From Salipiger bermudensis (lineage in GTDB: Bacteria; Pseudomonadota; Alphaproteobacteria; Rhodobacterales; Rhodobacteraceae), in the NCBI RefSeq assembly GCF_019801965.1, contig NZ_JAHVIA010000004.1, forward strand, positions 372,001 through 436,000: a DNA stretch of 64,000 nucleotides, given 5' to 3'. Positions within the stretch are counted from its first letter, which is position 1, and every line of letters starts with the position of its first letter. Made by a program: the position numbers and the translations under genes. This document shows positions 55,538 through 64,000 of this stretch, piece after piece. The notes below the pieces were generated by a model. That model was given only the letters and a program-made list of their open reading frames with translations, was not told where the DNA came from and did not search any database.

Positions 55538-55702
55538 TCAGTGATTGTTGTAGGCGTGCTTCTCGTGCACCGCGGCGATGATGATGGTCCCGGCGGTGAT
55601 CGCAACGGCGAGCAGCAGGAAGAGCATCATGATCGCGGGCTTGTCGGCAAAGGTGAAGTACGCTTCGGCGCCCTCCCAGCTTTCGATCGGAGAAGTGTTC
55701 AT
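55538..55702 (-). CDS. 54-residue membrane protein downstream of amtB
   Basis: Translates as MNTSPIESWEGAEAYFTFADK, then one hydrophobic helix (PAIMMLFLLLAVAITAGTIIIAAV, about 22-45) and a basic/polar tail HEKHAYNNH. AAGGA lies about 8 bp before the ATG. It starts 15 bp after the amtB stop and ends before the operon terminator, so it is co-transcribed with amtB. I do not recognise a named family. A small subunit or regulator of the ammonium transporter is a reasonable guess, from position only. Confidence 0.75.
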   Translation of the reverse strand: MNTSPIESWEGAEAYFTFADKPAIMMLFLLLAVAITAGTIIIAAVHEKHAYNNH

Positions 55703-55717
55703 CTTTGAGATCCTTTC

Positions 55718-57073
55718 TTACTCGGCCGGAGTGCCGGCGGCGGCGGGGGTCGCGGTGTTGACCGGGCCCGGGGTGTAGCTTTCCGGGTAGGCCGAGACCG
55801 GCACCTTGACGATGTCGAGGCCCTTTTCCTGGATGTGATCCGGCACCCGCAGCAGGCCGAAGACCTTGAGGATGTAGGACACCACGTAGCCCGGAACGAA
55901 GCCCAGCACGGCCATGGTCGCGGCGCCGACGATCTGGCCCCAGAGCGAGACCGGCGGCATGCCGTCGACATTGGGGTAGCCGGCGGCGAAGATACCGCAG
56001 GAAACCACGCCGATCAGGCCGCCGATGCCGTGCACCGGGAAGGCGCCGACGGCGTCGTCGATGCCCATCTTTTCGAGCCAGACGGCGACCATCGGGACGA
56101 CGAAGCCGCCGAAGGTGCCGAGCACGAAGGCCACCGGCGGGTAGTAGACGTCGAGGCCGGAGGCCGCGGCGAAGATGCCGATCAGGGCGCCGGACATCAT
56201 CCAGAACGGATCGCGGGTCTTGACCCAGGCGCCGATGATGCCGCCTGCCATGCCCATCAAGGTGTTGAAGGCAAAGGCCGAGAGCGTTGCGGGCTGGCCG
56301 TAGATGTTGATCCACTGCTCACCGGGCATGTAGATGATGCAGCCGCCGAGGAAGCCGAAGAAGCCCACGATGATCAGCATCAGGCCGGTGATGGTGAAGG
56401 GGATGTTGTGCGCGAGGATCGCGTTGGGCGAGCCGTCGGCGTTGAACTTGCCGACGCGCGGGCCGAGGTTGATCAGCACGCCGAGCGCGAAGAAGCCCGC
56501 GACCATGTGCACGACGCCGGCAGCGCCCACGTCATGGTAGCCGAACTTGACGGTCAGCCAGCCGGTCGGGTGCCAGCCCCATGCGCCGCCGAGGATCCAC
56601 ACGACCGAGCCCAGCAGGATGGCGAGGATCAGGAAGCCCGCGGTCTGGATGCGCTCGATCACGGCGCCCGAGAAGATCGAGGCGGTGGTCGCGGCAAACA
56701 GCGTGAAGGCCGCCCAGAAGATGCCGGTGGCGTTGTCGGCGAGGTTCGGGCCCATCGACATGTCCCACGGCAGGCCGGCTGCGCCGTCCGCGGCCGGGAT
56801 CAGGCCGTTGTAGAAGGCGAGGTAGATGTACCAGCCGAAGAAATAGAAGGTCGGCACCATGAAGGCGAAGGCGAGGATGTTCTTGATCCCCGAGGCCAGC
56901 ACGTTCTTCACCCGGCTCGCACCCATCTCGTAGGCGAGGAAGCCGGCGTGAATGGCGATCATCAGTGCCGTACACCACCAGTAGAAGATTTCCGAGTTGA
57001 TCGTGCCCGACATCGCGGAGGCGCTCTCCAGAGCCGCCAACCGCTCTGTCAGCGCGGCAAGTTCCTGTTCCAT
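55718..57073 (-). CDS. amtB: ammonium transporter Amt
   Basis: 451 residues from MEQELAALTERLAALESASA (57073). The first 20 residues form a short helix, perhaps a coiled coil, ahead of the first membrane segment; there is no signal peptide. About eleven membrane segments follow. Family signatures: YWWCTALMIAIHAGFLAYEMGASRVKNV, DVGAAGVVHMVAGFFALGVLINLGPR, HGIGGLIGVVSCGIF. The twin pore histidines lie in VVHMV and PVHGIGG. It moves ammonium (or methylammonium) across the inner membrane. No glnK/glnB gene accompanies it here; instead a 54-residue membrane protein does. Divergent from the glutamine-synthetase-like gene. Confidence 0.94.
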   Translation of the reverse strand: MEQELAALTERLAALESASAMSGTINSEIFYWWCTALMIAIHAGFLAYEMGASRVKNVLASGIKNILAFAFMVPTFYFFGWYIYLAFYNGLIPAADGAAGLPWDMSMGPNLADNATGIFWAAFTLFAATTASIFSGAVIERIQTAGFLILAILLGSVVWILGGAWGWHPTGWLTVKFGYHDVGAAGVVHMVAGFFALGVLINLGPRVGKFNADGSPNAILAHNIPFTITGLMLIIVGFFGFLGGCIIYMPGEQWINIYGQPATLSAFAFNTLMGMAGGIIGAWVKTRDPFWMMSGALIGIFAAASGLDVYYPPVAFVLGTFGGFVVPMVAVWLEKMGIDDAVGAFPVHGIGGLIGVVSCGIFAAGYPNVDGMPPVSLWGQIVGAATMAVLGFVPGYVVSYILKVFGLLRVPDHIQEKGLDIVKVPVSAYPESYTPGPVNTATPAAAGTPAE

Positions 57074-57388
57074 TGTCCTTGGTTCCCCATTGCGGATGTT
57101 ATTGTCAGGGCTTTCTCGCCCCTGCACTCAGAGTGAATAAAGTTTCCTGACGGCAAAACGCGGCGGAGACCCGATCCCGGGGAATACCGATGTTTGTCTA
57201 TTCCGAGGCGCTTTTCGCCAATAGGTGCCTATGGCTTGTGCAGGCTGAGAACGGTGACTGCCATTTAGGCGGGCGATTCCACCGTTGAGAATAAAAATTT
57301 CCCCTGAGTAATAAGTTTCGCTGGACAGACGCCGAGTCGGTCGGGCTGTCTTGAGCTCGAAAAACACAAAACCGCAGGGATGGACTTC
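57074..57388. other. shared promoter region of amtB and the GS-like gene
   Basis: 315 bp between divergent genes. The section 57280-57330 is AT-rich (AATAAAAATTTCCCCTGAGTAATAAG) and probably holds the promoter of the GS-like gene. I found no clear sigma-54 or NtrC site by eye. Confidence 0.45.
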
Positions 57389-58858
57389 ATGGATATCGAA
57401 CGCTTCGTCGAGGAACCGGGACGCGACGAGAAGATCAAGGCGGTGCGCGAGAAGATCGACGCGCTGGGCATCGAGTACCTCTACCTCCAGTTCGTGTCGG
57501 TCACCGGCAAGATCATGGGCAAGGGCATTCCCGCCGATCACTGGGAGAGCGTCGCCAAGAAGGGCTTCCAGCTGGTCTACGGCGCCACGGTGAACCTGTT
57601 CACCAACCGCGCCGGCGAGTACATGGGCTATGGCCCGGAGGCCGCCGAACTGGTCGGCATCCCCGAGCCCGAGACCTTCATGCAGCTGCCCTGGGCGCCC
57701 GAGATCGGCCGCATGTACTGCACACTGTTCCGCAACCGCGAGGAAAAGGTCGATCCCGGCGCCTACCTGACCGCCGATTGCCGCGGCAACCTGCGCCGCA
57801 TGCACGAGGCCTTCCAGAAGAAGCACGGGCTGCAGCTGCGCATGGGCACCGAGCCCGAGATGATGTGGCTGAAATACGATGAGAACGGCAAGCCGACCGA
57901 CGGCATGTCGAAGCCCTACTGCTACCATATCGACCAGTTTGAATCGCTGCGCCCGGTGTCGATGCAGGTGATCCGCTACGCCCGCAAGATGGGCCTCGAC
58001 ATGATCCAGGGCGATCACGAGGACGCGCCGGGCCAGCTCGAGCTGAACTGGACCTTCGACGACGTGCTGCGCAACGCCGACCGCCTGACCACCTATCGCC
58101 AGCTCTGCGCCCAGGTGGCGCGCGAGAACGGCATCTTCGCCTGCTTCATGACCAAGCCCTTCATGGGGGTCTCGGCGAGCGGGTGCCACCACAACATGTC
58201 GCTCTGGACCGCGGGCGAAGACGTGTTCAAGCGCACCGGCAACGATCCCGAGAACCTGCCGGGCAGCCCGGAGAACTACATGTATGTCTCGGGCGGCGAC
58301 AACACCTTCATGCCCGATACCGACGATCCGCAGATGCCCGGCAAGACCGGCCTCAAGGCGATCGGCGGGGTGGTGCATCACCTGCAGGCGCTGACCGCCA
58401 TCGGCGCCTCGACGGTCAACTCCTACCGCCGGCTCTGGGATACCGGATTCTGGGCGCCGGTGTTCTCCGACTGGGGCTTCCAGAACCGCACCACCGGCCT
58501 GCGGGTCTCGGCGCCGGGCCGCTTCGAGTACCGCTCGGTCGACTCGATGGTGAACCCCTATCTCATGGGCTCGGCGCTCTTGGCGGCGATGGATGACGGG
58601 CTCGACAACGATCTCGATCCGGGCGCGCCGGAAGAGCGCAACATCTACGACGCCATGGCGCAGGGCAAGAAGGTCAAGAAACTGCCGATGTCGCTTGGCG
58701 AGGCGCTGGCGCATCTGGAAAACGACGAGGTCGTGCAGCGCGGGCTTCCGGGCGAGATGTATCGCCTGTACCATGAGTACAAGTCGGACGAGTGGGCGCG
58801 CTTCATGTCCACCGTCACCGATTGGGACAAGGACACCTACATGGAGTGCCTGCCATGA
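57389..58858 (+). CDS. glutamine-synthetase-family amide ligase, possibly gamma-glutamylation of an amine
   Basis: 489 residues from ATG 57389 (AGGGA 8 bp upstream); an in-frame ATG three codons earlier (57380) has no site. Beta-grasp N-terminus (LGIEYLYLQFVSVTGKIMGKGIP) and full catalytic domain: metal ligands in GTEPEMMW, GDHEDAPGQLELN, SASGCHHNMSLW, and the nucleotide/glutamate-binding GRFEYRSVDSMVNPYLMGS. These are conserved, so it should be an active ATP-dependent ligase. No adenylylation Tyr loop of classic GlnA is evident. Family members of this kind join glutamate to amines. It is coupled to the P450 gene by an ATGA overlap and lies opposite amtB. Substrate unknown; GmaS-like function is possible but not shown. 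Confidence 0.8.
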   Translation: MDIERFVEEPGRDEKIKAVREKIDALGIEYLYLQFVSVTGKIMGKGIPADHWESVAKKGFQLVYGATVNLFTNRAGEYMGYGPEAAELVGIPEPETFMQLPWAPEIGRMYCTLFRNREEKVDPGAYLTADCRGNLRRMHEAFQKKHGLQLRMGTEPEMMWLKYDENGKPTDGMSKPYCYHIDQFESLRPVSMQVIRYARKMGLDMIQGDHEDAPGQLELNWTFDDVLRNADRLTTYRQLCAQVARENGIFACFMTKPFMGVSASGCHHNMSLWTAGEDVFKRTGNDPENLPGSPENYMYVSGGDNTFMPDTDDPQMPGKTGLKAIGGVVHHLQALTAIGASTVNSYRRLWDTGFWAPVFSDWGFQNRTTGLRVSAPGRFEYRSVDSMVNPYLMGSALLAAMDDGLDNDLDPGAPEERNIYDAMAQGKKVKKLPMSLGEALAHLENDEVVQRGLPGEMYRLYHEYKSDEWARFMSTVTDWDKDTYMECLP

Positions 58859-60057
58859 GCCTCGAGGCCCAGTTTCCCGACGCGCCCTTTCTCGACGTCG
58901 CGAACCCGGCCTTCTCGCTCCGGTCCGAACCGGTGCGGGAGGCCCGCGCCAAGAGCTGGTATGCCCGCACGCCCTATGGGCTCGCGGTGCTGCGCCATCA
59001 GGAGATGGGCCAGCTGCTCACCCACAAGGCGCTGATCCAGGGCAGCCACGCCTGGCCGGCGCTGAACGGGGTGACCGAGGGGGTGTTTGCCGACTGGTGG
59101 AACAAGTCGATCCTCGTCACCGAGGGCGACGACCACTGGCGCCTTCGCAAGCTGGTGAACCCGGCCTTCTCGCCCAAGGTGGTGAAGGCGCTGATGCCCG
59201 AGTTCGAGCGCATCGCCAACGATCTGGCGGATCAGTTCATCGCCAAGGGCGGCTGCGATTTCATGGCCGAGTTCGCCGATCCCTATGCCGCGCGGGTGCT
59301 CTGCCTGCTGCTCGGCCTGCCGGAGAGCGAGGCGCCGTTCATCCTGCGCACCTCGGCCACGATGGGGCTGGCGCTGGGGGTCAACTTCCCCAATCTCGTC
59401 GATGAGATCGAGGCGGCGACGGTGGAGCTCGGCGACTATATCAGCGAGGTGCTGAAGACGCGCGAGAGCAACCCGGGCGATGACATCCTGTCGATCATGG
59501 TGCAGGCGCGCGAAGAGGGCGACCGGCTGAGCCACGAAGAGCTCTGGAACCTCGCGCTGATGCTGGCCTTCGCCGGCGTCGACACCACGCGCAACCAGCT
59601 CGGGCTCGGCATGTCGATGTTTGCCGCGCATCCGGAGCAATGGGAGGCGCTGGCCGCGGATCCCTCGCTCGACATGGCGGCGGCGACCGAGGTCATGCGG
59701 ATGCGCCCGACGATCACCTGGGTGTCGCGCGAGGCGATCGAGGATTTCGAGTATGGCGGCATCACCATCCCCAAGGGCACGGTGCTGCATCTCTACTCCG
59801 AGAGCGCCGGCACCGACCCGCTGGTGATGGCCGACGCGCCGTTCGACATCACCGCCAAGCGGGCACGCAATTTCGGCTTCGGCGGCGGGGTGCACCATTG
59901 CCTGGGCAACCTCGTGGCGCGCAACGACATGGCGGTGGCCTACCGGGTGCTCTCGGCCCGCATGGGCGCGCCGGTGGTGGGCGAGGGCGCGACCTGGCTT
60001 GCCGACAGCGGCAACACCGGGCCGATCGCGCTGCCGATCACGTTCGCGGCGCGGTAG
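58855..60057 (+). CDS. cytochrome P450
   Basis: 400 residues from ATG 58855, overlapping the ligase stop (ATGA). Soluble bacterial class I P450. I-helix oxygen-activation motif AFAGVDTTRNQ (about 238-248), ExxR at E279-R282, heme loop FGFGGGVHHCLGNLVAR with ligand C349. No ferredoxin or reductase gene lies in the visible part, so electrons must come from elsewhere. The tight coupling to the GS-like ligase suggests it oxidises the glutamylated product or the same amine substrate; that is inference. Confidence 0.9.
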   Translation: MSLEAQFPDAPFLDVANPAFSLRSEPVREARAKSWYARTPYGLAVLRHQEMGQLLTHKALIQGSHAWPALNGVTEGVFADWWNKSILVTEGDDHWRLRKLVNPAFSPKVVKALMPEFERIANDLADQFIAKGGCDFMAEFADPYAARVLCLLLGLPESEAPFILRTSATMGLALGVNFPNLVDEIEAATVELGDYISEVLKTRESNPGDDILSIMVQAREEGDRLSHEELWNLALMLAFAGVDTTRNQLGLGMSMFAAHPEQWEALAADPSLDMAAATEVMRMRPTITWVSREAIEDFEYGGITIPKGTVLHLYSESAGTDPLVMADAPFDITAKRARNFGFGGGVHHCLGNLVARNDMAVAYRVLSARMGAPVVGEGATWLADSGNTGPIALPITFAAR

Positions 60058-60377
60058 GGGCTGGTTAGGATCCTGCTTTGGAGGGGCTCGCCAGTGGCGG
60101 GCCCTTTTCGCATTCCAGGCTCCCCGTTCGATCCCCGCTTTGGCGCGGAATCAAGGCCGCAGGCCGCCGCGCCCATCGCCGGCCCGCCCCCCGGGCTGGC
60201 GATTTGGTGAGGTCAGCGCTGCATTGCGAGGTCCTTCGGACGTGAGCCAGATAAATCGAGAGGCTCAAGGCGCTGGATCGCCATCCCGCGGGCCGGCGAC
60301 GGGCGCGGCGGCGTCACCTGTGCGAACGTCGGCCTGTCCGGGGCGGCGAGGCAGCCGCCGGAGAAACGCAGCCCAAC
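60058..60377. other. non-coding stretch after the P450 gene
   Basis: 320 bp without a gene, largely the palindromic repeat copy B. Just after the P450 stop, GGGGCTCGCCAGTGGCGGGCCC (about 60081-60102) followed by TTTTCG can form a terminator for the ligase-P450 operon. Confidence 0.55.
60143..60317. repeat. palindromic dispersed repeat, copy B (175 bp)
   Basis: Aligns end to end with copy A at 5861-6028: GCGCGGAATCAAGGC start, GAGGTCCTTCGGA in the centre, GTCAC end. Outer arms 60163-60187 and 60288-60312 pair over 25 bp with one mismatch. Where copy A has CCTGCCCG/CGGGCAGG, copy B has CCGGCCCG/CGGGCCGG: both arms changed together, so pairing is kept. It lies between the convergent P450 and GMC genes. 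Confidence 0.8.
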
Positions 60378-60461
60378 TCACAGCCCCGCCGCGATCTTCT
60401 CCGCTCCCAGCGCCCCGATCAGGATCGAAGGCGCGTTGGTGTTGCCGCCGACGATGCGCGG
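60378..60461 (-). pseudogene. remnant of a second GMC oxidoreductase gene (last 27 codons)
   Basis: Reads PRIVGGNTNAPSILIGALG and on to AEKIAAGL and a stop, identical in protein to the end of the intact GMC gene whose stop is 149 bp away. At DNA level the two differ at four codons, each silent (GGC/GGT, CCT/CCG, GCG/GCA, CTG/TTG). Upstream of the first Pro the similarity stops abruptly. The remnant directly follows repeat copy B. Confidence 0.85.
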
Positions 60462-60526
60462 CGGCCTTCGGCCTTGTCCCGCGCCTGCTGAGGTCTGGTC
60501 GTGGCGGCTCTGGCAATGAACCCAGC

Positions 60527-62068
60527 TCACAACCCCGCCGCGATCTTCTCCGCTCCCAGTGCCCCGATCAGGATCGACGGCGCGTTGGTGTTGCCACCGA
60601 CGATGCGCGGCATCACCGAGGCATCCGCCACCGACAGCCCCGCCACGCCATGCACCCCCATCGTCGCGGGGTCGACCACCGAAAGCGCATCCGTTCCCAT
60701 CTTGGCCGTGCCCACCGGGTGATAGATCGAATCCGCCGTCGCGCGCACCACCGCGTCCAGCGCGGCATCGCTCGTCACAGCCGGCCCCGGGCGCAGCTCC
60801 TCGCCGGTAAACGCTGCCATCGCAGGTTGCTTGCAGAGGTCGCGCAGCATCTTCAGCCCCTCGCGCAGCGCCACGCGGTCGGTCTCTTCCGCAAGGTAGT
60901 TCGGGTCGATCAGAGGCCGCTCGCGCGGGTTGTTCGAGGCGATGGTCAGCCGGCCCCGGCTCTCGGGCTGCAGCTGGGTCACGTCGATGGCGAAGCCGTG
61001 GCCGCGGTCGTCCGCCGTCGCGCCGTCGAAGGCCAGCGCGTTGATGAAATGCAGCTGCGTGTCCGGCGCGCCGTCGCCTTCGCCAAGACGCAGGAACGCC
61101 CCGGCCTCGAGCCCCTGCTGGGTGCCCACGCCCTTGCCGGTGAACAGCCATTGCGCTCCTACCGCGAGGTTGTTGGGAAACTTGGCATGATCCCAGAGCG
61201 ACAGCGGCTCGGTCATGCGGTGCTTGACCTTGACCTCGAGATGATCGTGCAGGTTCTCGCCCACGCCCGGAAGATCGGCGCGCAGCGGGATGCCCAGCGG
61301 GCGCAGCTGCGCCGCCGGCCCGATGCCCGCGTGCAGCAGCAGGTGCGGCGTGCCGATGGCGCCGGCGCAGAGCACCACGTGGCCGGCAGACAGTGTCTCC
61401 TCGCCAGAGGGCGTCATCACCAGCAGCCCGTCGATGCGGGCGCCGTCTCCGGTCAGGCGCAGCACCTCGACGCCGGTCTTGACCTCGAGATTGGCGCGCC
61501 CTTTTGTGAGCCCCAGATAGGCGCGGGCGGTGCTGTGGCGCTTGCCGTCCTTGACGTTGACCCGGAACAGTCCGAAGCCCTCTGCCTGGCCCTCGACGGC
61601 CTGGTGCACCGGATAGCCCATCTGCCCGCCGGCCTCGACGAAGGCATCGTAGGAGGGGCCGCTCTCGGGGATCGCCGGGGCCATCACCCGCGTCACCTCG
61701 TCGAGCACCGGCTTGACCTCGGCCCAGGACCAGCCGTCGCAGCCTGAGGCTGCCCAGTGATCGTAATCCGAGGCGTGGCCGGTGACCCAGACCATGGCGT
61801 TGATCGAGGACGAGCCGCCCAGCACACGCCCACGCGGGACGTAAAGCCTGCGGCCATCCATATGGGCCTGCGGCACGGTCTCGAAATGCCAGTTGAAGTG
61901 AGGCGAGGCGATGGCCTTGGCGACGCCCGCGGGCATCGAGATGAACGGGTGGCGCCCGGGCGGGCCGGCCTCGAGCAGCAGCACCCGGCAGGCAGGATCG
62001 CGCGACAGGCGCTCGGCCACGGCGCAGCCGGCGCTGCCGGCACCGACGACGATGACATCCCAGCTCAT
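60527..62068 (-). CDS. GMC-family oxidoreductase (choline dehydrogenase-like)
   Basis: 513 residues. FAD-dependent alcohol oxidase/dehydrogenase. Rossmann motif VIVVGAGSAGCAVAERLS (6-23), GMC signature 1 PRGRVLGGSSSINAMVWVTGH, signature 2 GAIGTPHLLLHAGIGP, and C-terminal HPVGTAKMG...VADASVMPRIVGGNTNAP with the catalytic His region. It resembles BetA but the substrate is not certain; a hydroxylated amine or alcohol would fit the neighbours. The ATG overlaps the stop of the MetX-like gene (ATGA). A short remnant of a paralogue lies just downstream. Confidence 0.9.
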   Translation of the reverse strand: MSWDVIVVGAGSAGCAVAERLSRDPACRVLLLEAGPPGRHPFISMPAGVAKAIASPHFNWHFETVPQAHMDGRRLYVPRGRVLGGSSSINAMVWVTGHASDYDHWAASGCDGWSWAEVKPVLDEVTRVMAPAIPESGPSYDAFVEAGGQMGYPVHQAVEGQAEGFGLFRVNVKDGKRHSTARAYLGLTKGRANLEVKTGVEVLRLTGDGARIDGLLVMTPSGEETLSAGHVVLCAGAIGTPHLLLHAGIGPAAQLRPLGIPLRADLPGVGENLHDHLEVKVKHRMTEPLSLWDHAKFPNNLAVGAQWLFTGKGVGTQQGLEAGAFLRLGEGDGAPDTQLHFINALAFDGATADDRGHGFAIDVTQLQPESRGRLTIASNNPRERPLIDPNYLAEETDRVALREGLKMLRDLCKQPAMAAFTGEELRPGPAVTSDAALDAVVRATADSIYHPVGTAKMGTDALSVVDPATMGVHGVAGLSVADASVMPRIVGGNTNAPSILIGALGAEKIAAGL

Positions 62069-63084
62069 GCCAGCAGCTCGCGCAGGGCGGTGTCGATCAT
62101 GTCGGTGTCGGGCTGGTTGCGCCCGCCGCCGGCATAATGTCCCCAGACCGAGTCGATCACCCGCAGCTCGGCATTGGGCATCAGGGCCACCTCGCGGGCG
62201 TTGTCCTCGGGCGGGAAGTAGAAATCCGTGCGGCAGGGCAGCACGATGGATTTCGCGGTGATCGCCTTCAGCGCCGCCTCGCGGTCGCCATTATAGAGCG
62301 GGTTGGCCGAGATGTCGCAGGCCTGCCACGTGGCGATGAGCGAGAGCATGTCATTGGCGTCGAGCCCGTAATACATCGCGTCCCAGACGTTCTTGAGGTA
62401 GTCCTCGACGCTCACGTAGCCCATGCCGCGCCACAGCTCCTCGCGGAACCATTCCTGGCTCAGCACCCAGCCGGCCCAGACCCGGCCCTTGGCGGTCAGC
62501 CCACGCCACGGCGGCTCTTTATAGCGCCCCTGCATCCACGCCGGATCGGTGATCAGCGCGTGCTTCACCCCCTCGAGGAAGACATAGGTGTGGCCGGCGG
62601 TGATCGCCTGCCCGCAGAAGCAGGCCATCGCTTCGACCCGGTCGGGGAACAGCGCCGCCCAGTGATAGGCCTGCTGCCCGCCCATCGACCAGCCGCAGGC
62701 GAGCCGTACCTTGGTGATGCCGAACACCTCGCGCAGCAGCCGCTCCTGCAGCATGACGTTGTCATACTGGGTGATGCGCGGGAAATCCGGCCCGGCCAGC
62801 GGGACGGGCGTGTTGGACGGCGAGGAGGAGACGCCGTTGCCCAGCATGTTGGGCACGATGATGAAGTACTTCTCCGGATCGAGCGCCATGCCGGGCCCGA
62901 TCAGGAATTCATTGTCCGCATGGCTGCCGCCGTAGCGCGTGGGATAGACGACGACGTTGTCGAGCGCCGCGTTGAGCCGGCCAAAGGTGGCATAGGCGAG
63001 CTTCGCCTCGGGCAGGGTGATGCCGCATTGCAGATGCACCGGGCCTGCCTCGAAGATCTCGTAAGGGGTCAGTTCCGCGCTCAT
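62065..63084 (-). CDS. MetX-like alpha/beta hydrolase
   Basis: 339 residues from ATG 63084 (MSAELTPYEIFEAG). Fold and blocks of the homoserine acetyltransferase family: LPEAKLAYATFG, NVVVYPTRYGGSH, IIVPNMLGNGVSSSPSN, nucleophile elbow GWSMGGQQAYHWA, and a late His in WGHYAGGG. True MetX has LTGTSASAHV-like and GGSMGG segments; here the oxyanion and elbow regions differ, so this is probably a hydrolase or acyltransferase for another substrate. Translationally coupled to the GMC gene and divergent from the FMO gene. Confidence 0.8.
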   Translation of the reverse strand: MSAELTPYEIFEAGPVHLQCGITLPEAKLAYATFGRLNAALDNVVVYPTRYGGSHADNEFLIGPGMALDPEKYFIIVPNMLGNGVSSSPSNTPVPLAGPDFPRITQYDNVMLQERLLREVFGITKVRLACGWSMGGQQAYHWAALFPDRVEAMACFCGQAITAGHTYVFLEGVKHALITDPAWMQGRYKEPPWRGLTAKGRVWAGWVLSQEWFREELWRGMGYVSVEDYLKNVWDAMYYGLDANDMLSLIATWQACDISANPLYNGDREAALKAITAKSIVLPCRTDFYFPPEDNAREVALMPNAELRVIDSVWGHYAGGGRNQPDTDMIDTALRELLA

Positions 63085-63329
63085 GCTCTCGCCTCCGTGC
63101 CGTGCCGCTTCACGCGGCCTGATGTGGTGTCCCGCGTCACCGAACCACGCCGGCACCGGGCTCCGGCGCAGCGTGAGAGGGTGGCTCCGGAGGCTGCCTC
63201 ATCCTTGGGCAGAGCGCCTCCGGTCCCGGTCAAATTCCCATCCGTCCGCTCAACCCACAAGAAAATTTGTTGCGCGAGAGTGAATATTTGGAACCATGAG
63301 GAAAACTTGCCCAAAGGGAGAACAGGGAC
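63085..63329. promoter_or_regulatory. shared promoter region of the MetX-like and FMO genes
   Basis: 245 bp between divergent genes. AT-rich around 63245-63310 with an imperfect palindrome CAAGAAAATTTGTTG (about 63260-63274), a possible operator or promoter. AAAGGGAGAACAGGG before the FMO ATG is its ribosome-binding site. Confidence 0.4.
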
Positions 63330-64000
63330 ATGAAGATTTGCGTGATCGGCGCCGGCCCGTCGGGTCTGGCCCAGCTTCGGGCCTTCCAGTCCGCCAAGGA
63401 AAAGGGCGAGGCGATTCCCGAGATCGTCTGCTACGAGAAGCAGCCCGACTGGGGCGGGCTCTGGCGCTATGACTGGCGCACCGGCGTCGACGAATACGGC
63501 AACCCGGTGCATGGCTCGATGTATCGCTACCTGTGGTCGAACGGGCCGAAGGAGGGCCTCGAATTCGCCGATTATTCCTTTGACGAGCATTTCGGCAAGC
63601 CGATCGCCAGCTACCCGCCGCGCGCCGTGCTGTTCGATTATATCGAGGGCCGGGTGAAGAAGGCCGGGGTGCGCGACTGGATCCAGTTCTCCACCGTGGT
63701 GCGCGATGTTTCCTATGATGAGGCCTCGGGCAAGTTCACCGTCGTGGCGCGCAATGGCGAGACCGACAGCGAGAGCCGAGAGGAGTTCGACCACGTCATC
63801 GTCGCCTCGGGCCACTTCTCCTTCCCCAACGTGCCCTATTACCCCGGCTTCGAGAGCTTCAACGGCCGCATCCTGCACGCCCATGATTTCCGTGATGCGC
63901 GCGAGTTCGAGGGCAAGGACATCCTCATCCTCGGCACCTCCTACTCGGCCGAGGATATCGGCTCGCAATGCTGGAAATACGGTTGCGCCTCGGTGACCGT
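63330..64000 (+). CDS. tmm: trimethylamine-monooxygenase-type flavin monooxygenase (5' part)
   Basis: Open from ATG 63330 to the window end, 223 codons; the C-terminal half is missing. FAD motif [46 protein letters not shown], the FMO fingerprint [11 protein letters not shown], and NADP motif [13 protein letters not shown]. The sequence follows bacterial trimethylamine monooxygenase closely, and N71 matches the conserved active-site Asn of that enzyme. It should oxidise trimethylamine to the N-oxide with NADPH and O2 in the cytosol. A paralogue with another amine or sulfide substrate is possible. Divergent from the MetX-like/GMC pair. Confidence 0.75.

Follow-up and report, generated by a model that had tools for sequence, protein, structure and literature searches.

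A trimethylamine cluster of Salipiger bermudensis with a putative glutamylation route for dimethylamine in place of DmmABC

The locus and the trimethylamine cluster at its edge

In this study, which was based on a 64,000-nucleotide stretch of the Salipiger bermudensis genome (assembly GCF_019801965.1, contig NZ_JAHVIA010000004.1; G000:C4:372001-436000 in a 4.83-Mb genome), hereafter the window, and on comparison with other genomes, we analysed the gene group at positions 55538-64000, which includes a ligase of the glutamine synthetase (GS) family, here called GS-X. Judging from the gene content, we think it fairly likely that this group belongs to a trimethylamine (TMA) cluster whose dimethylamine (DMA) step is a glutamylation route (an amide made by GS-X, N-demethylation by a cytochrome P450, and mgs/mgd) in place of DmmABC. 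The gene positions, which were taken from the open reading frame listing and tblastn, are as follows.

55538..55702, minus strand: membrane protein of 54 amino acids (aa), downstream of amt (sequence and translation)
55718..57127, minus strand: Amt-type transporter, likely ATG at 57073 (PF00909, 205 bits)
57380..58858, plus strand: GS-X, GS-family GmaS-like ligase; proposed gamma-glutamyl-dimethylamide synthetase (Gln-synt_C, 270 bits)
58855..60057, plus strand: P450; proposed N-demethylase of the glutamyl amide (P450 family, 67 bits)
60527..62068, minus strand: GMC oxidoreductase; proposed, as one of the least certain assignments, to oxidise the N-hydroxymethyl intermediate (GMC_oxred N and C)
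62065..63156, minus strand: MetX-like alpha/beta hydrolase, likely ATG at 63081; proposed, with as little certainty, to be an N-formyl hydrolase (PRK07581, 487 bits, cut-off 332)
63330..64000, plus strand, running past the window edge and complete at L002:9330-10679: tmm, a flavin-containing monooxygenase (FMO) identified as trimethylamine monooxygenase, with which the TMA run opens (NF058570)

A previous sequence-only reading of the window had named these genes and two couplings, and all of them are present: there are family matches for amt, GS, P450, GMC, MetX-like and FMO genes, and the ligase and P450 genes, like the MetX-like and GMC genes, overlap by ATGA. The FMO, which had been called Tmm-like, passes the curated model NF058570 with 824 bits (cut-off 675). 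The genes at 55538-64000 are indeed grouped, but the cluster does not end at 64000, as the TMA genes continue over the next 25 kb. After tmm comes tdm (1172 bits to NF053776, cut-off 1100). The genes next in line encode a choline-kinase-like protein, a DAO-GcvT fusion, an iron alcohol dehydrogenase, a regulator of the XRE-cupin type and an MgsA-like amidotransferase together with other mgs-type products; the same region holds a gmaS-type gene (665.7 bits to TIGR03105, cut-off 470), a soxA-type gene taken as mgd (1318 bits, cut-off 1164) and purU, the mgs and mgd names being assigned by position and similarity. The three genes between tdm and mgsA, the choline-kinase-like gene, the DAO-GcvT fusion (L002:13918-16353) and the iron alcohol dehydrogenase, occupy L002 13040-17582.

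No match to dmmA (NF041259) was found in this genome. A lone DUF3445 gene at C8:211968 was considered as a hidden Dmm and rejected, having no dmm neighbours. As read from the sequence, the locus is one edge of a predicted TMA to N-methylglutamate cluster without dmmDABC, and the branch by way of an N-oxidised amine, which the earlier reading had included, turned out to be ordinary, Tmm and Tdm being known enzymes of TMA and trimethylamine N-oxide (TMAO). An amt gene similar to the one in the window adjoins dmmDABC in several dmm genomes. Just downstream of the GMC gene, a 91-bp direct repeat (60372-60462 and 60521-60611, 94.5%; window 60372-60611) forms a second copy of its 3' end. Elsewhere in the same genome (L193 5215-8660, G000:C5), two more GS-like genes near the best class-I amidotransferase match have the appearance of a polyamine glutamylation cluster.

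GS-X, its settings and its distribution

GS-X matched four GS-type models of NCBIfam but reached the cut-off of none, the best score being that to TIGR03105 (320 versus 469.6 bits), and was about 29% identical to GmaS by tblastn. Alignment to the genome's own GmaS and GlnA showed that it keeps the amine-site and catalytic residues of GmaS Lys30, Tyr147, Gln175, Asp177, Glu179, Glu186 and Asn188. In the alignments with the genome's own GlnA and 8ool, its flap has a Trp in place of the Glu of GlnA (GFWAP versus GFEAP), and the Asp50 region is not conserved; it is with this loop and the flap Glu that GlnA binds ammonium. The flap residue of GmaS is Trp300, and catalysis there is by Asp177 and Glu186 (PMC7948447; this and the other articles are cited from excerpts of their text); GmaS Arg312 and Trp300 are unreadable by number in GS-X owing to an indel, and the Trp was read from the aligned block. 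We rejected an ordinary glutamine synthetase on the scores below the cut-offs and on the loss of the flap Glu and the Asp50 loop; it was one of the two outcomes named as refuting the sequence-only reading. GS-X is also unlikely to be a second GmaS, because a true GmaS-type gene is already in the genome. Assemblies labelled SAR116, Hyphomicrobiales and Granulosicoccaceae contain GS-X as well.

A scan of GTDB contigs, from which the best 80 of 590 were kept (named loci; GS-X at 74-99% identity), revealed two main settings. In the Mgs-type setting, which accounts for 72 of the 80, GS-X adjoins a class-II amidotransferase of the MgsA kind; an MgsC-like (glutamate-synthase-like) subunit follows GS-X in all 61 of these loci that extend 3.5 kb or more downstream (68 of 72 without the flank limit), and a DAO-type dehydrogenase of the tested kind lies within 12 kb in 32 of them. 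No P450, GMC or MetX gene of the window type was found within 12 kb in any of the 72; a flank of about 10 kb is available on either side in 40 of them, and 11 are shorter than 10 kb, so that the absence of a neighbour is partly limited by the flanks. In the P450-type setting (7 of 80), a P450 follows GS-X, with GMC and MetX-like genes in all seven, while one further locus at a contig end was left unclassed. A class-I amidotransferase, possibly a gamma-glutamyl hydrolase, lies within 12 kb of GS-X in 37 of the 72 Mgs-type and four of the seven P450-type named loci; the window has no space for one between MetX and tmm, and the best match in the genome (35%) is at C5:235696. Recurrent members of the Mgs-type GS-X operon (L037 14810-16657) are a hydrolase of the nitrilase family and two small proteins (137 and 194 aa) for which Pfam gave no match at 1e-5.

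The ligase-P450 and GMC/MetX-like pairs, whose linkage had been proposed, do occur together across genomes: the four genes, each as one near-full-length match, were found in 13 (G000, G497, G506, G508, G470, G558, G573, L021-L024, L025 and L039), in L025 and L039 in a divergent arrangement. G497 is the same locus as L020 of S. bermudensis HTCC2601. Their grouping, which recurs in two arrangements, is not due to chance. In two further genomes, where an assembly error is possible, the genes are fragmentary: L160 (G510) has GS-X, GMC and MetX in fragments with dmmA elsewhere in the genome, and in L162 (G285) the TMA genes (tmm, tdm) and the module are affected.

The distribution of GS-X was compared with that of dmmA (counts based on NF041259) and tdm in the same 149 genomes of the family (148 genera). 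Tdm passed the cut-off in 35 genomes, 18 of which had dmmA, 15 GS-X, none both and two neither; among the 114 tdm-negative genomes, GS-X was found in none and dmmA in one (G086). With fixed margins and the genera taken as independent, the probability of zero overlap between dmmA and GS-X is 4e-8, a value that overstates the significance, since the genera are related. In these counts, G046, with a 51% GS homologue of another type, was left out of GS-X, G096 (dmmA match below the cut-off) was classed as dmm-negative, G102, where a contig end truncates the gene, as GS-X, and G063, G073, G125 and G145 as tdm-negative. These last four and others carry a Tdm-like protein of about 1007-1091 bits, below the cut-off of 1100, that sometimes adjoins a true tdm. 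As for the two genomes with neither gene, a contig of G033 (74% complete) starts inside an Mgs-type GS-X operon next to tmm-tmoXW-tdm, so GS-X was probably lost at the contig end, and G021 is 79% complete with a 6-kb contig.

Within the genus (20 genomes), tdm passed the cut-off in nine, three of which had dmmA (G496, G505 and G510). Full-length GS-P450 was present in all six tdm-positive genomes without dmm and in none of the three with it, GS-X having been read in this test only around P450 matches. Of the dmm-positive trio, G496 has no P450 match, G505 only a 50% P450 of another type and G510 the P450 with fragmentary GS-X, GMC and MetX; the 11 tdm-negative genomes have no dmmA, and the P450 occurs only in G285. 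The 29 genomes reached by way of the named GS-X loci, a set that overlaps the others (G662 and G497, for example, share coordinates), include 27 with tdm over the cut-off and none with dmmA. Both genes also keep close to tdm: where they share a contig with it, GS-X lies 7-22 kb away (13 of 15 genomes) and dmmA 3.5-23 kb away (14 of 18). In the 28 stretches that were read, the TMA clusters have either dmm genes or a GS-X operon, and no GS-X match was found in the dmm-bearing ones, which cover 11 of the 18 tdm-positive, dmm-positive genomes. Taken from gene presence, the apparent replacement of Dmm by GS-X in tdm-carrying genomes is well supported.

It was also considered that the TMA cluster might be inherited in two versions, of which GS-X and the dmm operon are merely the markers; GS-X would then have a side role, in the handling of ammonium or methylamine for instance, and an unrecognised enzyme would oxidise DMA. 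In favour of this, TMA clusters are inherited and exchanged as blocks, and the search for DMA enzymes covered Dmm; however, a true GmaS-type ligase is already in the genome, and GS-X is the sole non-standard gene common to the Mgs-type and P450-type clusters that were read, the class-I amidotransferase being found only in part. We consider this explanation very unlikely. Since GS-X is the gene shared by both cluster types, it is most parsimonious that it takes DMA, the product of Tdm, and its taking the place of dmm across genera likewise indicates one substrate, DMA. A direct DMA monooxygenase activity of the P450 alone, replacing Dmm, was dropped once 23 Mgs-type GS-X genomes (G668-G690) were also found to have no dmmA, which makes GS-X and not the P450 the common factor.

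The phylogeny of both proteins was then compared. In the GS-X tree of 56 sequences, for which the Mgs-type sequences were thinned (the first twelve, then every third) and short matches and sequences under 60% identity were left out except for three outgroup sequences, the P450-type sequences stand in three places among the Mgs-type ones, and the well-supported branches require three changes or more; one of these places is the long branch of G083, without which two places, the safer count, remain. In the P450 tree (31 sequences), the nine P450-type sequences form one clade (100/99), and seven P450s near Mgs-type operons group together on another branch. By these trees, one P450 lineage is paired with different GS-X lineages, as is expected if the product of GS-X is the substrate of the P450. 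A second P450 clade, 39-44% identical to the window P450, was observed near some Mgs-type GS-X operons or adjoining tdm (L034 16949-18181, L208 353-1513 and L210 1502-2650).

The proposed dimethylamine route and its alternatives

The route would begin with two known enzymes, both assigned by curated models: Tmm would convert TMA to TMAO, and Tdm would convert TMAO to DMA and formaldehyde. GS-X may then form gamma-glutamyl-dimethylamide from DMA, glutamate and ATP, and the P450 would hydroxylate one N-methyl group of the neutral amide. A neutral amide is a suitable kind of substrate for P450 N-demethylation, and glutamylation removes the charge that should make free DMA a poor one. At the least certain step, the N-hydroxymethyl amide could break down to gamma-glutamylmethylamide and formaldehyde or, alternatively, the GMC enzyme might oxidise it to the N-formyl compound, from which the MetX-like hydrolase would free formate. 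N-hydroxymethyl amides are fairly stable, which would give both of these enzymes a role. Gamma-glutamylmethylamide, the normal product of GmaS, would enter the MgsABC and Mgd encoded downstream. At most other GS-X loci, paralogous MgsABC-like subunits, partly with a DAO-type dehydrogenase, may instead lead by way of N,N-dimethylglutamate to N-methylglutamate. The idea that an amine is glutamylated and then oxidised by the P450, the GMC enzyme and the hydrolase thus survives at its core, as the ligase is not an ordinary glutamine synthetase and the pairs are conserved together, so that neither of the outcomes named as refuting it came about, but the ligase usually occurs without this P450 and beside Mgs-like subunits. 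In its wider form, the proposal is of an undescribed aerobic DMA pathway by way of gamma-glutamyl-dimethylamide with two interchangeable branches (a P450 N-demethylase and a duplicated N-alkylglutamate synthase), which replaces DmmABC in 15 of the 35 sampled tdm-carrying genera of the family and would explain part of the supposed marine DMA bottleneck; on balance we regard it as probable.

Besides the relatedness of the genera and the P450-centred reading of the genus test, several observations weigh against such a route. The search for DMA enzymes covered Dmm, with others, such as dimethylamine dehydrogenases, outside it, and two of the 29 GS-X genomes (G677 and G689) have no tdm over the cut-off. 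The four genes, described in the sequence-only reading as one set, are conserved together in 13 genomes but are separable: G495 and G083 have GS-P450 with no GMC-MetX nearby, in G495 far from tdm, and G620, which has no tdm over the cut-off, has MetX-GMC on a 6.3-kb contig. Distant P450 relatives (about 50%) accompany other GS-like genes in the dmm-positive genomes G046, G245 and G505, and P450s of the other clade lie near Mgs-type GS-X genes in L034, L045, L096, G072 and G079. No ferredoxin or reductase that could serve as redox partner was found among the genes read around the window P450. DMA is a poor substrate of GmaS (Km 16.07 x 10^3, taken as micromolar, the unit lying outside the excerpt), and TMA is also in the activity table (PMC7948447). 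Because TMA is unable to form an amide, DMA turnover in that table is no proof of amide formation and lends weak support. A 2Fe-2S ferredoxin is found near GS-P450 in G495, and the MetX-GMC pair of G620 adjoins flavodoxin-like and pyridine-nucleotide oxidoreductase genes.

In another explanation, GS-X glutamylates DMA, the ordinary MgsABC converts the amide to N,N-dimethylglutamate and the DAO-GcvT fusion demethylates it, while the P450, the GMC enzyme and the hydrolase have other functions. In this genome, as in several P450-type relatives, the fusion does stand between tdm and mgsA, and the common Mgs-type GS-X loci use Mgs-like subunits, partly with a DAO-type enzyme. We nevertheless hold this to be unlikely, because the P450 gene overlaps that of GS-X by ATGA, the P450 clade accompanies GS-X into separate GS-X lineages, and the 21-kb stretch L025 contains the P450 but no orthologue of the fusion.

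The MetX-like protein, with 143 bits to TIGR01392 (cut-off 500), does not reach the threshold for the homoserine O-acetyltransferase MetX and falls in PRK07581, and the GMC oxidoreductase, with 457 bits to TIGR01810 (cut-off 732.1), misses the threshold of the choline dehydrogenase BetA. The MetX-like gene was rejected as a marker of the system; among the weaker (47-59%) of its 28 non-own matches in 394 genomes, none of the seven whose surroundings were read has a GS, P450 or GMC match within about 18-19 kb. The P450 has the motifs AGVDT, ExxR and FGGGVHHCLG and is 53% identical to a P450 of Gordonia pGKT2 (L114, 8001-10512), which is followed by a GS-like stretch. Downstream of this P450/GS-like stretch come an FAD oxidoreductase and another P450, in what we take to be the RDX/xpl region. 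The pGKT2 P450 is presumably the one named CYP151; membership in a CYP family is assigned above about 40% identity to an authenticated member, and that of the window P450 in CYP151 is not settled.

These relatives raise the alternative that the substrate of the module is a different secondary or cyclic amine, for example pyrrolidine or piperidine, as with the MorA/PipA P450s linked to glnA-like genes, and that the module stands in the TMA cluster because of shared regulation or transport. In its favour, P450 relatives of about 50-54% accompany GS-like genes elsewhere among bacteria, in Gordonia pGKT2 and several Rhodobacterales genomes among others, and P450-ferredoxin-glnA operons have been published (PMC10516948). 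However, it leaves unexplained the non-overlap of GS-X and dmmA in the 35 tdm-positive genomes and the finding of GS-X in none of the 114 tdm-negative ones, and we therefore judge it improbable beside the glutamylation of DMA. A separate recurrent cluster with a P450 (50-54%) and two GS-like genes, most often with an ABC transporter gene, was observed in L116, L115, L175-L180 and L163; some examples have a class-I amidotransferase, a 2Fe-2S ferredoxin or an aldehyde dehydrogenase, it occurs in dmm-positive genomes too, and it is probably another amine pathway. On Streptomyces plasmids (L118 and L119), a P450 (46%) with a ferredoxin and a reductase is embedded in a cluster of ectA, ectB and ectoine-synthase genes that also encodes adenylation and carrier proteins and looks like an unusual ectoine-type natural product cluster.

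Comparison with known systems

DMA is a climate-active, aerosol-forming amine. In R. pomeroyi, dmm is needed for its use, and the 2017 DmmABC study inferred a bottleneck from dmm being rarer than tmm, tdm and gmaS, and found SAR11 and the CHAB-I-5 lineage to lack it (PMC5520151). The searched text of that article has no occurrence of “alternative” or “glutamine synthetase”. An article from 2026 assigns the DMA step of the TMA cluster to Dmm (PMC13390433), with no occurrence of “P450” or “glutamine synthetase” in its searched text. Other work has described P450-ferredoxin-glnA operons and piperidine/morpholine P450s (PMC10516948, PMC9477822) as well as GS-like enzymes that glutamylate organic amines (PMC11335346). 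Our literature search, which covered few subscription papers, found no description of a DMA glutamylation pathway, and “dimethylglutamate” and “glutamyldimethylamide” do not occur in those papers on the subject whose text was searched. To this extent, the earlier opinion that the set is undescribed agrees with the literature.

For many Rhodobacterales, GS-X is a candidate answer, testable by deletion of one gene, to the question of how TMA degraders without dmm dispose of the DMA that they form, and it is a metagenomic marker for a possible hidden DMA sink. If the proposal is true, part of the supposed marine DMA bottleneck stems from looking only for dmm, and estimates of bacterial DMA consumption could change. 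The route also offers a role for the association of P450 and GS-like genes that is seen in several bacterial groups.

In the MorA/PipA systems, a GS-like (glnA-like) gene also adjoins the P450; their substrates, however, are cyclic secondary amines, and ferredoxin or reductase genes adjoin there and not at the window. In the AtdA1/NpaA1 routes for aniline and naphthylamine, glutamylation of the amine precedes the oxygenase step (PMC11335346). The isopropylamine (Ipu) pathway has the same order of steps. The ligases and oxygenases of these pathways are different, however, and the GS-X genes are tied to TMA catabolism. DmmDABC carries out, in the same TMA cluster, the step proposed for the GS-X route and often lies beside amt (PMC5520151), whereas its genes and chemistry differ, Dmm acting on free DMA, and it did not co-occur with GS-X in the 35 tdm-positive genomes. 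GS-X also resembles the GmaS/MgsABC/MgdABCD system, the N-methylglutamate pathway for monomethylamine, in which a GS-family ligase gamma-glutamylates a methylated amine; the amine-site residues are kept, and the common setting of GS-X has MgsA-, MgsB- and MgsC-like subunits after it. GS-X nevertheless forms a separate group alongside GmaS in this genome, is accompanied in the window by a P450 and not by Mgs subunits, and has DMA as its proposed substrate.

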